Source: Flavobacterium sp. (GTDB lineage Bacteria; Bacteroidota; Bacteroidia; Flavobacteriales; Flavobacteriaceae). Taken from it: a stretch of DNA of 5,557 nt. The DNA lies in NCBI GenBank assembly GCA_003449615.1, contig DMHA01000234.1, forward strand, positions 1 to 5,557, read 5' to 3'. Positions 1,681 through 5,557 of this stretch are shown piece by piece (positions within the stretch are counted from its first letter, which is position 1; the number at the start of each line of letters is the position of its first letter). The translations under genes and the position numbers were made by a program. Below the pieces are notes generated by a model. The model had not been told where the DNA came from. It searched no databases and saw only the letters and a program-made list of their open reading frames with translations.

Positions 1681-1740
1681 TTTTTGTAATTTCTTATGTG
1701 TTCCTTACTTGACAATCAAGCTTTTTATCCTTCAATTCAT
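1681..1740 (-). pseudogene. Decayed fragment resembling the 3' end of the ABC exporter gene
   Basis: Positions 1701-1720 match 3661-3680 at 18 of 20 bases, the five bases before them match at four of five, and the T-rich block at 1681-1690 resembles that at 3618-3627, with about 30 bases missing between. Read on the minus strand in the exporter's frame, it gives L-I-V-K-stop-G-T-H-K-K-L where the intact gene has L-I-V-E-Q-G-T-H-Q-E-L. A one-base insertion lies just before this stretch. The orientation is the same as the intact gene. It begins about 20 bases after the toxin stop. It could be a relic of the intact exporter gene downstream or of a close paralogue. The similarity is short, so chance is not fully excluded. 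Confidence 0.55.
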
Positions 1741-2680: not shown

Positions 2681-2695
2681 AAATAAATGCTTCTG

Positions 2696-2898
2696 TCAAA
2701 AGCACAAATGAGCGTATCAGTAATGAAGTTTGTGCAATGGTTGCAAAAAGATACAATGTACCCACTTTTGCACGATTCAAACCAATAGGTATGCAGTAAG
2801 TTCGATTTTAAAACAAACAATCGTAGAATTTAAAGATTACCCAGCGTAGCACAATTTGCGTTAGGTGGTGGAACTAATTTGGCTTTGAAATACTATCA
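2696..2898 (+). pseudogene. Decayed second copy of the antitoxin-toxin junction
   Basis: This stretch aligns with 797-1000 at about 90% identity by my hand count (roughly 20 differences and one single-base deletion). It covers the last 31 antitoxin codons and the first 38 or so toxin codons, including the GGGTNLAL active-site motif. The antitoxin stop and toxin start (TGA and ATG sharing bases) have become GGT and AGG, so the antitoxin frame now runs on to a TAA at 2797-2799. A base is missing between 2828 and 2838, and the toxin frame then meets TAG at 2847-2849. Neither gene can be made. It begins 16 bases after the Rpn stop and ends 7 bases before the DUF2238 stop. In the antitoxin part four of six base changes are silent, pointing to divergence while functional. 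Confidence 0.92.
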
Positions 2899-2905
2899 AA
2901 TTATT

Positions 2906-3553
2906 CTATTTCTCCCGTAAATTGAACACTTTTTTCACAAAAGACACAATAGTGGTTGCCAGTATGGAGCCTATAAATGCCAAGAATATATCTTTTTGTG
3001 CATCCCAAATATCACCTTGTGTTCCTAAATAAGCATCTCCTTGTGCTTTGAAAAATACATCAGCAACTGCCCATTCGACTAATTCGTAAAAACCACTGAT
3101 GGAAAGTGTGATTTCTATGGGCAAAGTCCAAGCTACCCAAGTTGGGAATTTGAGCCATTTCAAAAACATTTCACGCATGGGGTAAGCCAATAAAAATCCA
3201 AAACTAAAATGAACAATTCTGTCGTAATGATTTCGGGATAAATCGAGTGCCTCTTTTAGCCAGTAACCAAACGGATTTTCGGCATAAGTGTATTTTGAAC
3301 CGTAAACGTGCAGACACAAATAAACACAAATTAACAAATAGCTAAGGTCGCTAAATTGGAATTTTTTGTAGTTGAATGTTATAAAGCCAAGGAATAAAAA
3401 AACTAAGGTGTTTTCTAATATCCAATTGGCGGTATCAGTATTTCCGATATAGGAATTTGCCCAATTGACAAGAAAAAAAACAATAAAAATTTGAAGCCAG
3501 ATGTTCTTTTTTAGAGGAGTTCGGTATTTGGAAATTGCAATTGTAAATGCCAT
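2906..3553 (-). CDS. DUF2238 (YjdF-like) integral membrane protein
   Basis: This 215-residue inner-membrane protein of unknown biochemical role belongs to the DUF2238 family, typified by E. coli YjdF. Hydrophobic segments suggest about six membrane helices: roughly 18-35, 44-60, 68-84, 113-127, 137-155 and 189-206. Family motifs are H-V-Y-G-S-K-Y-T-Y (82-90), R-N-H-Y-D-R-I-V-H-F (107-116), G-F-Y-E-L-V-E-W (154-161) and the loop G-T-Q-G-D-I-W-D-A-Q-K-D (177-188). These conserved His, Asp and Glu residues hint at metal or ligand binding near the membrane, but no reaction is established. The start ATG lies 15 bases after the ABC exporter stop, so the two are probably transcribed together, although a functional link is not implied by the families. 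The gene ends in TAG, close against the toxin-antitoxin relic. Length is normal and there is no sign of damage. Confidence 0.88.
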   Translation of the reverse strand: MAFTIAISKYRTPLKKNIWLQIFIVFFLVNWANSYIGNTDTANWILENTLVFLFLGFITFNYKKFQFSDLSYLLICVYLCLHVYGSKYTYAENPFGYWLKEALDLSRNHYDRIVHFSFGFLLAYPMREMFLKWLKFPTWVAWTLPIEITLSISGFYELVEWAVADVFFKAQGDAYLGTQGDIWDAQKDIFLAFIGSILATTIVSFVKKVFNLREK

Positions 3554-3568
3554 AAGGAATAAATTTAA

Positions 3569-5338
3569 TTAGTTATTTGTGGTGTCGATTTCTAAAGCAA
3601 ACTGAGAGTCGTATAATTTTTTGTAATATCCATTTTCAAAGGTCAATAATTCCTGATGCGTTCCTTGCTCGACAATCAAGCCTTTGTCCATCACTACAAT
3701 TTTGTCGGCTTTGAGAATGGTGGCCAAACGATGTGCAATTACGATAGAAGTTCTGCCTTTGGTAATGTTTTCGGTCGCTTTCTGAATCAATTCCTCCGAA
3801 TAAGTATCAATAGAAGAAGTGGCTTCATCCAAAATCAGAATACTCGGATTGCTCACATAAGCACGCAGAAAAGCAATCAATTGGCGTTGCCCCGAAGACA
3901 GCATAACGCCACGCTCTTTCACATCAAAATCATAATTATCGGGCAAACTCATAATGAATTTATGGACGCCAATTTTTTTGGCGGCAGCCAGAACTTGTTC
4001 CCGAGAAATATCGGGATTGTTGAGGGTAATATTATTGAAAATGGTATCGGCAAAAAGAAAAACGTCCTGCAACACCACCGCTATTTGCTTTCGCAAAGAA
4101 CTTAAAGTGTAATTTTCAATGTTTTGACCGTCAATACATATCGTTCCGCTATTAATTTCATAAAAACGGTTCAGCAAATTGATAATCGTTGATTTTCCTG
4201 CTCCTGTGGCTCCAACAATGGCAATGGTTTTTCCTGCTTTTACATCTAAATCGATTCCTTTAATCACATATTCTTCGGCGATATAGCCAAAGTGAACATC
4301 TTTAAATTGAATACTTCCTTTGAATATAGGCGCTTCGATAGTTCCCGTATCTTGAATTTGGTCTTGGGTGTCGAGAATATCAAAAACACGATTGGCGGCA
4401 ATCATTCCGAGTTGCATTTCGTTGAATTTATCTGCAATTTGACGCAACGGATTGAATAACATCCCGATAAACATGGTGTAGGAAAACAAATCTCCAAAGG
4501 TGGTGAAATTGTCCCCATTCAATATTTTAATTCCTCCGTAAAGTACAACAAAACCAAGGGTTAACGAAGAAATAATATCGGCAATAGGAAAGAAGATGGA
4601 GTTGTATAAAATGGTTTTTATCCAAGCTTTATTGTGTTTTTGATTGATGGTTTTGAATTTTTCGAATTCAATATCTTCCCGATGAAATAATTGTACAATT
4701 TTCATTCCTGTCACTCGTTCCTGAACGAAGGAGTTCAAATTGGCAATTTGTGTACGAACTTCCTCGAAAGCGATTTGCATTTTCTTTTGAAAAATTCGAG
4801 TGAAGAACACTAAAATTGGCATCGCAACGATGACAATCCAAGTAAGTTTCCAATTCATATAAAACATAAACCCCAGCACCACAATCATTTTCATCATATC
4901 ACTTATGATCATAAATAATCCTTGACTAAAAATCCGTGCAATGGCTTCAATATCCGAAACCGAACGAGTCACGAGTTGTCCTACAGGCACATTGTCAAAA
5001 TATTTCATTTTGAAGCTTAGAATATGTTTGAACATTTTATTTCGAATGTCTTTTACGATGTCTTGTCCAAGCCAGTTAGCCCAAAAGACAAAGAAAAATT
5101 GAGAAAAAACTTCCAGTAACAAAACAAATCCCATTAGACTGACATACAGTAAAAGTCCAAATTGGTCGTGGGTTTTAATGTATCCATCGACTGTTTGTTT
5201 TAATAAATACGGTCGTAAAGCTGCAAAAACAGATAATGAAACGGCAAAAATAATCACACCATTAAAGCGTAACTTATAAGGCTTTGTATATTGTAATATT
5301 CTTTTGAATAAACGGGTATCGAATGCTTTTGCTTTCAT
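3569..5338 (-). CDS. ABC exporter half-transporter, fused permease and ATPase (MsbA/MdlB-like)
   Basis: The 589-residue protein has an N-terminal six-helix ABC exporter domain (about 20-310) and a C-terminal nucleotide-binding domain (about 340-575). It would dimerise in the inner membrane and export a lipid, peptide or drug using ATP. Helices are seen near 27-45, 62-86, 138-160, 165-182, 247-270 and 282-300. All ATPase motifs are present: Walker A GATGAGKST (376-384, K382), Q-loop Q424, signature LSSGQ (480-484, a common variant of LSGGQ), Walker B I-L-I-L-D-E (500-505) with catalytic E505, D-loop S-S-I-D (508-511) and switch H536. The site therefore looks fully active, fitting a homodimer or the competent half of a heterodimer. 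The ATG at 5338 gives a normal N-terminus. The DUF2238 gene follows 15 bp downstream. Heptad repeats begin about ten bases before the start. The substrate cannot be told from the sequence. A fragment like its 3' end lies at 1681-1740. Confidence 0.93.
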   Translation of the reverse strand: MKAKAFDTRLFKRILQYTKPYKLRFNGVIIFAVSLSVFAALRPYLLKQTVDGYIKTHDQFGLLLYVSLMGFVLLLEVFSQFFFVFWANWLGQDIVKDIRNKMFKHILSFKMKYFDNVPVGQLVTRSVSDIEAIARIFSQGLFMIISDMMKMIVVLGFMFYMNWKLTWIVIVAMPILVFFTRIFQKKMQIAFEEVRTQIANLNSFVQERVTGMKIVQLFHREDIEFEKFKTINQKHNKAWIKTILYNSIFFPIADIISSLTLGFVVLYGGIKILNGDNFTTFGDLFSYTMFIGMLFNPLRQIADKFNEMQLGMIAANRVFDILDTQDQIQDTGTIEAPIFKGSIQFKDVHFGYIAEEYVIKGIDLDVKAGKTIAIVGATGAGKSTIINLLNRFYEINSGTICIDGQNIENYTLSSLRKQIAVVLQDVFLFADTIFNNITLNNPDISREQVLAAAKKIGVHKFIMSLPDNYDFDVKERGVMLSSGQRQLIAFLRAYVSNPSILILDEATSSIDTYSEELIQKATENITKGRTSIVIAHRLATILKADKIVVMDKGLIVEQGTHQELLTFENGYYKKLYDSQFALEIDTTNN

Positions 5339-5485: not shown

Positions 5486-5557
5486 ACCTGCCATCTGCCA
5501 TCTGCTACCTGCCATCTGCCATCTGCCACCTGCGATCTGCCATCTGCCATCTGCCAT
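5486..5557. repeat. Tandem 7-bp repeat array (ATCTGCC), at least ten units, cut by the window end
   Basis: Ten consecutive heptads run from 5486 to 5555 and the array continues past the edge. Most are ATCTGCC; exceptions are ACCTGCC at 5486 and 5507, ACCTGCG at 5528 and ATCTGCT at 5500. The ACCTG units fall exactly 21 bp apart, giving a higher-order repeat of three heptads. Seven is not a multiple of three, so the array is not a simple amino-acid repeat and is best read as intergenic. There are no unique spacers between units, so this is not a CRISPR array. Confidence 0.9.

Follow-up and report, generated by a model that had tools for sequence, protein, structure and literature searches.

Genomic organization of the locus

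The window, the whole stretch of 5,557 nucleotides analysed here (C167:1-5557), comes from a Flavobacterium assembly of 2.95 Mb in 437 contigs that is rated 76% complete. It opens with an HTH regulator gene (68-418) and a two-gene operon on the forward strand. The first gene of the operon (601-891) encodes an intact predicted antitoxin of 96 residues with a DUF6922 match (PF21956, E 5.5e-11), and the second (888-1658) an intact predicted toxin of 256 residues, an AbiEii-type nucleotidyltransferase (PF08843, E 1.1e-8; PADLOC AbiEii, E 1e-10); the two genes overlap by ATGA (888-891). Beyond the operon lies ABC' (1687-1740, reverse strand), a broken copy of an ABC-transporter gene's 3' tail, with a core at 1687-1725 and the frame lost. 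Between this fragment and the relic described below, the forward strand carries a gene of the Rpn-family PD-(D/E)XK nucleases (rpn, 1832-2680, 282 residues), which scores well above the cut-offs of both family models (PF12784, E 8.1e-70, 235.5 bits against a cut-off of 27.4; TIGR01784, E 3.8e-33, 115.5 bits against 52.1). The relic, TA' (2696-2898, forward strand), is a decayed copy of part of the operon. It ends 8 bases from the end of a DUF2238 membrane-protein gene (2906-3553, reverse strand; PF09997, E 2e-50), a native neighbour, which is in turn followed by an intact MsbA-like ABC-transporter gene (3569-5338, reverse strand; PF00664, PF00005) whose tail (3647-3700) matches ABC'. The order is thus full operon, ABC', rpn, TA', DUF2238 and full ABC gene. 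Upstream of the ABC gene, positions 5488-5557 form a run of CTGCCAT-type tandem repeats, and the adjoining contig is partly masked.

The toxin resembles that of the type IV AbiE system, with a match to the AbiEii/DUF1814 nucleotidyltransferases, motifs I to IV (LGG, DID, KLMSASNR and KDIYD, read by eye) and a two-gene operon, as set out in the available sections of PMC3985639. Its partner differs from the AbiE antitoxin described there, being a short DUF6922 protein and not a two-domain AbiEi; it matches DUF6922 in Pfam only and nothing in NCBIfam or PADLOC. No mention of DUF6922 was found in the literature searched. The toxin had no match in viral contigs, phages or solved structures; its closest whole-operon relative in genome contigs reaches 63% toxin identity, with up to 87% among proteins only.

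DUF6922 antitoxin genes seem to outlast their toxin genes. Five loci (L076, L117, L119, L120 and L122) carry the antitoxin gene with no AbiEii match in the fetched stretch, one of these antitoxins (L117) being 94% identical to that of the window, and at L121 the antitoxin stands beside a truncated toxin. A further candidate orphan (L073) was set aside, as it lies at a contig end.

Comparison of the relic with the intact operon

TA' covers antitoxin codons 66 to 96 and about the first 37 toxin codons. Repeat searching and alignment identify its counterpart as positions 797-1000 of the forward strand. The first-pass annotation had described a segment about 90% identical to the operon across its ATGA junction, with both the shared stop/start and the toxin frame destroyed, and the alignment bears this out: 204 columns hold 19 mismatches and 1 gap (90.2% identity), ATGA has become AGGT, so that the stop/start overlap is gone, and one base is missing opposite 932/933, which breaks the toxin frame. 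The longest exact runs common to both copies are 29, 28 and 26 bases. The 216-base stretch 2690-2905 matches itself and 797-1000 only in its own genome (E 1e-74; assembly 76% complete). An assembly artefact was set aside, given that the two copies differ by 10% on one contig and that a comparable pair, described below, lies on another.

The 19 mismatches were polarised with 19 homologues. Four changes fall on the intact copy (804, 846, 923 and 941) and all are silent. Ten fall on TA' (810, 819, 876, 884, 889, 891, 932, 962, 991 and 996), in addition to the deletion. Five mismatches (905, 924, 937, 938 and 948) have no branch assignment; the calls at 804, 846 and 819 lean mainly on the nearest homologues, and that at 991 on toxin protein relatives. 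At a neutral expectation of 22% silent changes, the intact copy departs significantly (4 of 4 silent, p 0.002) and TA' does not (4 of 12 silent, counting 905 and 924 in; p 0.26). Between the two copies, the contrast is not significant by itself (Fisher p 0.077), and the numbers are small. The annotation had also observed that antitoxin-side changes are mostly silent, which is correct for 4 of the 6 changed codons, but polarisation places two of the silent changes (804 and 846) on the intact copy.

Residue conservation agrees with decay on the relic's side. Among the 40 of 41 fetched toxin relatives that could be aligned, the residues F15, K16 and K35 of TA' occur in none, and at positions 15 and 16 TA' departs from the residue kept in 40 of 40; its V13, D17 and V21 are present in 2, 1 and 1 of the 40, respectively. 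Conversely, S6 is common to TA' and the intact toxin and is found in only 2 of the 40 relatives, which ties TA' to this very operon. A functional paralogue would have changed mainly silently; the relic branch instead holds 3 silent and 7 non-silent changes and a deletion, in a small sample with 5 of 19 mismatches unassigned. On these small numbers of sequence differences, TA' looks like a decaying duplicate of this operon and not a long-lived paralogue. The proposal that it is what remains of a diverged functional paralogue, not of a fresh duplication, thus holds in that the copies are too far apart for a fresh duplication and is not supported as to the functional paralogue. Two complete operons, or a deletion joining the two copies, which the annotation had suggested looking for in related strains, were not seen there.

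One public protein complicates the comparison. P0121 (96 residues, from a 2,650-base contig) equals the window antitoxin except for K70N, the residue that TA' itself has; position 70 is K in 37 of the 38 antitoxins compared (38 of 120 listed), P0121 being the sole N. It is possible that TA' derives from an N70 allele (by import or from a second copy), that TA' has converted an intact gene, or that the match is a coincidence. A chimeric contig was dismissed by reasoning, as the copies share no sequence left of 797 that would allow switching.

The rpn gene and its joint

The homology of the rpn gene with genome G079 spans 1773-2699 at 81%, and TA' starts where this homology stops. Homology and alignment together place the joint, the end of the 3' flank of rpn, at 2681-2699 (forward strand). 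The four bases TCAA (2696-2699) fit both the rpn flank and the operon copy; in A+T-rich DNA, four shared bases prove little. The sequence between the arms measures 944-970 bases, depending on where ABC' is taken to end. No inverted pairs of at least 16 bases were found at the two rpn ends, so that the element does not look like a conventional insertion sequence, and compared with plasmids, the DNA from operon to rpn gave matches in rpn only. Within the gene, codons 162, 172, 180, 213 and 234 are candidate internal in-frame starts for a putative intragenic antitoxin, RpnS.

The genome's other PF12784 gene, a more distant rpn (C382:3659-4561, L190), also lies between direct copies. Its arms (3498-3649 and 4628-4779) are 152 bases each and 92% alike, are separated by 978 bases, and consist of intergenic sequence and the last 30 codons of dapD, the dapD fragment standing 9 bases from the rpn stop. 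The dapD pair shows 3 differences, 2 silent on the intact copy and 1 non-silent on the fragment, so that the fragment looks to be ageing like TA' on a smaller scale. Among relatives, all of the 19 loci fetched have only one dapD tail, and 52 other genomes with a dapD match have one match each. In G025, G036 and G021 a relative of the Kdo-kinase-like neighbour gene lies directly beside the one dapD tail and leaves no room for rpn. Both rpn genes found in this genome hence sit between copies of pieces of neighbouring genes. These direct copies are long and not the same from one locus to the other, unlike a short target-site duplication of fixed length. The TA fragment, the dapD fragment and the ABC core each have just one other match in their own genome.

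ABC', which had escaped the first-pass annotation, supplies the other side of the rpn gene in the window. Its core matches 3647-3685 at 33 of 39 bases (E 2.1e-5 within its own genome), and the ABC tail is the best other match of 1687-1725 in the genome. Repeat finding extends the match weakly to 1751, in the orientation of the ABC tail and with the frame lost. Where the core departs from the intact copy, all six changes yield A or T. Aligned to this stretch, the orthologous ABC tails of G013 and G021 score lower (48 and 41 against 64) and in a different register. The alignment score of 61 exceeds the best of 1000 dinucleotide shuffles (57); that the fragment is short, with 39 core bases, counts against the duplication favoured below.

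Relatives' loci and the wider survey of repeats

At seven relatives' loci (L067, L068 and L123-L127) DUF2238 adjoins ABC and the fetched stretch matches neither TA nor rpn. Further on, G013 and G021 carry a gene that resembles dihydrolipoyl dehydrogenase in sequence. No relative was found with TA, DUF2238 and ABC in a row, the seven loci lacking both rpn and TA.

Direct repeats straddle 12 of 21 rpn blocks; the other 9 have no straddling repeat. The comparison sets gave 3 of 93 for arbitrary centres, 4 of 22 for loci of the DUF6922/AbiEii pair and 0 of 7 for DUF2238 loci (Fisher p 2e-8 against the random centres and 0.012 against the DUF6922 loci). The arbitrary centres were taken from 31 random regions of 7 of the 9 rpn-bearing genomes. 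The arrays at L163 and L164 count as one block each, L185 as two blocks whose flanks repeat each other, and L188, where rpn is a fragment containing a stop, is not among the 21. Of the 12 straddled blocks, only the two of this genome involve pieces of neighbouring genes. The arms were compared with ORFs at 8 of the 9 other loci (all but L152), and none of them overlaps an ORF longer than 102 residues; five of those eight (L154, L162, L163, L185 and L187) have further copies of the repeats in their own genome. On these two counts, the repeats around rpn genes were not taken in general to be duplications made by insertion.

On plasmids, 2 of 9 records have repeats across the whole rpn block, and one of the two is a family with nine places in its plasmid. 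At L256 (2764-3044) a repeat of about 280 bases, partly annotated as a hypothetical gene, occurs in nine places each in Bacteroides faecis and B. ovatus plasmids. Direct rpn arrays of two or three copies stand at L163, L164, L252 and L254; at L163 and L164 the copies are 97% alike over the unit, and array copies carry short C-terminal repeats such as GKIEGKIE and EGILEGIL. A search for an empty site of the array in G323 left its left neighbour unmatched in the stretches around argH of 23 relatives.

Flanking copies are also found outside the rpn family. In G268 a DUF6922/AbiEii operon lies between two 156-base copies (91% alike; L083:4583-4738 and 5916-6071) of the tail of a short-chain-dehydrogenase-like gene, whose Pfam match is below the cut-off; the anatomy of these flanks is the same as at both rpn genes of the present genome.

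Origin of the duplicated sequences

The reading we favour, with a probability of roughly 55%, is that TA' and ABC' are the two inner ends of one direct duplication, whose unit began at the operon junction, took in DUF2238 and closed with the end of ABC, rpn standing where the two copies meet. Support comes from two fragments, each derived from a gene across rpn and each in direct orientation, from the start of TA' where the rpn homology with G079 stops, and from the second rpn between dapD tails that are single in relatives. The DUF2238/ABC pairs without TA or rpn, the distribution of silent and non-silent changes, and the S6 residue point the same way. Low-copy sequence from the far side, in direct orientation, thus flanks the window's rpn on both sides; at the second rpn the dapD fragment derives from one neighbour only, on one side. 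As to how the joint formed, we infer that a piece of DNA bearing rpn joined the chromosome and that the duplication was made at that event, either because one end crossed over within homologous flanks while the other was joined illegitimately, or because template switching produced a tandem duplication. Redundant parts would later have disappeared: the left copy would have shed DUF2238 and the right one the toxin body, after which TA' would have decayed with no coding role. Several observations weigh against this reading. DUF2238 is absent from the left copy and ABC' lacks the last 26 ABC codons, so that two later deletions must be assumed. The state before the duplication has to be supposed, since no relative with TA, DUF2238 and ABC together was found. 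The contrast in silent changes between the copies lacks significance on its own, and in the survey pieces of neighbouring genes flank rpn in this genome only. Finally, P0121 with its K70N is not predicted by the simplest duplication in situ.

That protein is an argument for a possible but less probable alternative, in which TA' was imported from a donor that had an N70 allele of the same operon. Here rpn would have entered with flanking donor DNA, one end crossing over and the other being joined illegitimately, so that donor fragments stayed next to genes of the recipient. Homology-facilitated illegitimate recombination of this kind is a route described in the available sections of PMC5361080 and PMC3240628, and import overlaps with the favoured duplication, of which it is one branch. 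Yet the K70N of P0121 may also stem from gene conversion by TA' or from an independent mutation, and other changes of TA' (start lost, F15, K16) resemble decay and not an allele. It is unlikely that the fragments and rpn are independent, with two unrelated small duplications in a repeat-rich spot and rpn a bystander. The survey lends this some weight, in that rpn genes of this genus are often surrounded by direct repeats in the intergenic DNA, several of which are multicopy, and in the nine-copy repeat that straddles rpn on a Bacteroides plasmid. Against it, TA', the dapD fragment and the core of ABC' each match just one other place in their own genome, TA' and ABC' each come from a gene beyond rpn, and both rpn genes found in this genome sit between such copies.

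A little less probable again is the origin first proposed for TA', namely that it is left over from a diverged paralogous operon, once functional, which stood beside the first and was lost. An identity of 90% is indeed too low for a fresh copy, most of the changed antitoxin codons are silent, and the N70 of TA' recurs in the otherwise intact P0121. However, once polarised, the antitoxin changes of TA' itself are 2 silent to 2 non-silent, invariant toxin positions 15 and 16 are altered, and both ABC' and the dapD case would be left unexplained. The direct duplication with rpn at its joint remains our preferred account. A far broader extension of it, that rpn genes in Bacteroidota are mobile bare cassettes of about 0.95 kb (promoter, gene and some ten bases) whose entry into the chromosome copies between 0.15 and about 1.7 kb of the target, is doubtful; were it true, it would be a transposition-like route that uses neither inverted repeats nor a fixed target duplication and whose footprints are decayed gene fragments like TA'.

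Relation to known systems and implications

The anatomy of the window fits what is reported for rpn genes, to which it adds host sequence duplicated over long stretches and since decayed. In the available sections of Zhong et al. (2023, PMC10327210), rpn genes are gained and lost singly, with varying ends and no identifiable inverted repeats or target-site duplications; their arrays arise by tandem direct duplication, and RpnL proteins are suspected of starting recombination and generating duplicated rpn genes. The window shares the single-gene pattern and differs in that its single rpn stands between decayed direct copies of host genes, as does the second rpn. Long duplications of differing length are likely to be missed by a search for short target duplications. 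For a wider Rpn-group nuclease, RpnA, Kingston et al. (2017, PMC5350276) describe, in the sections available, stimulation of RecA-independent recombination and a template-switch model. The likeness is that such a nuclease promotes RecA-independent joining and that template switching could give joints of the present kind; the difference is that their proteins are overexpressed E. coli members of PF04754, whereas the window gene matches PF12784 and is a predicted nuclease. A further parallel is offered by the orphan immunity-gene arrays that effector displacement has left in Vibrio T6SS clusters, where an incoming module is proposed to use homology on one side and illegitimate joining on the other, so that part of its predecessor stays beside it (PMC5361080). 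There the immunity gene is whole; in the window, the copied antitoxin gene is cut short and rpn is the newcomer. No report of rpn genes with direct-repeat footprints was found in the literature searched, which is not proof of novelty.

A relic such as TA' could arise even where only one functional operon had ever stood. For rpn genes, single-gene gain and loss is recorded with no transposition footprint identified in the available sections of PMC10327210. The decayed duplications at both rpn genes found in this genome, for one of which relatives show empty sites, provide a concrete footprint to seek.
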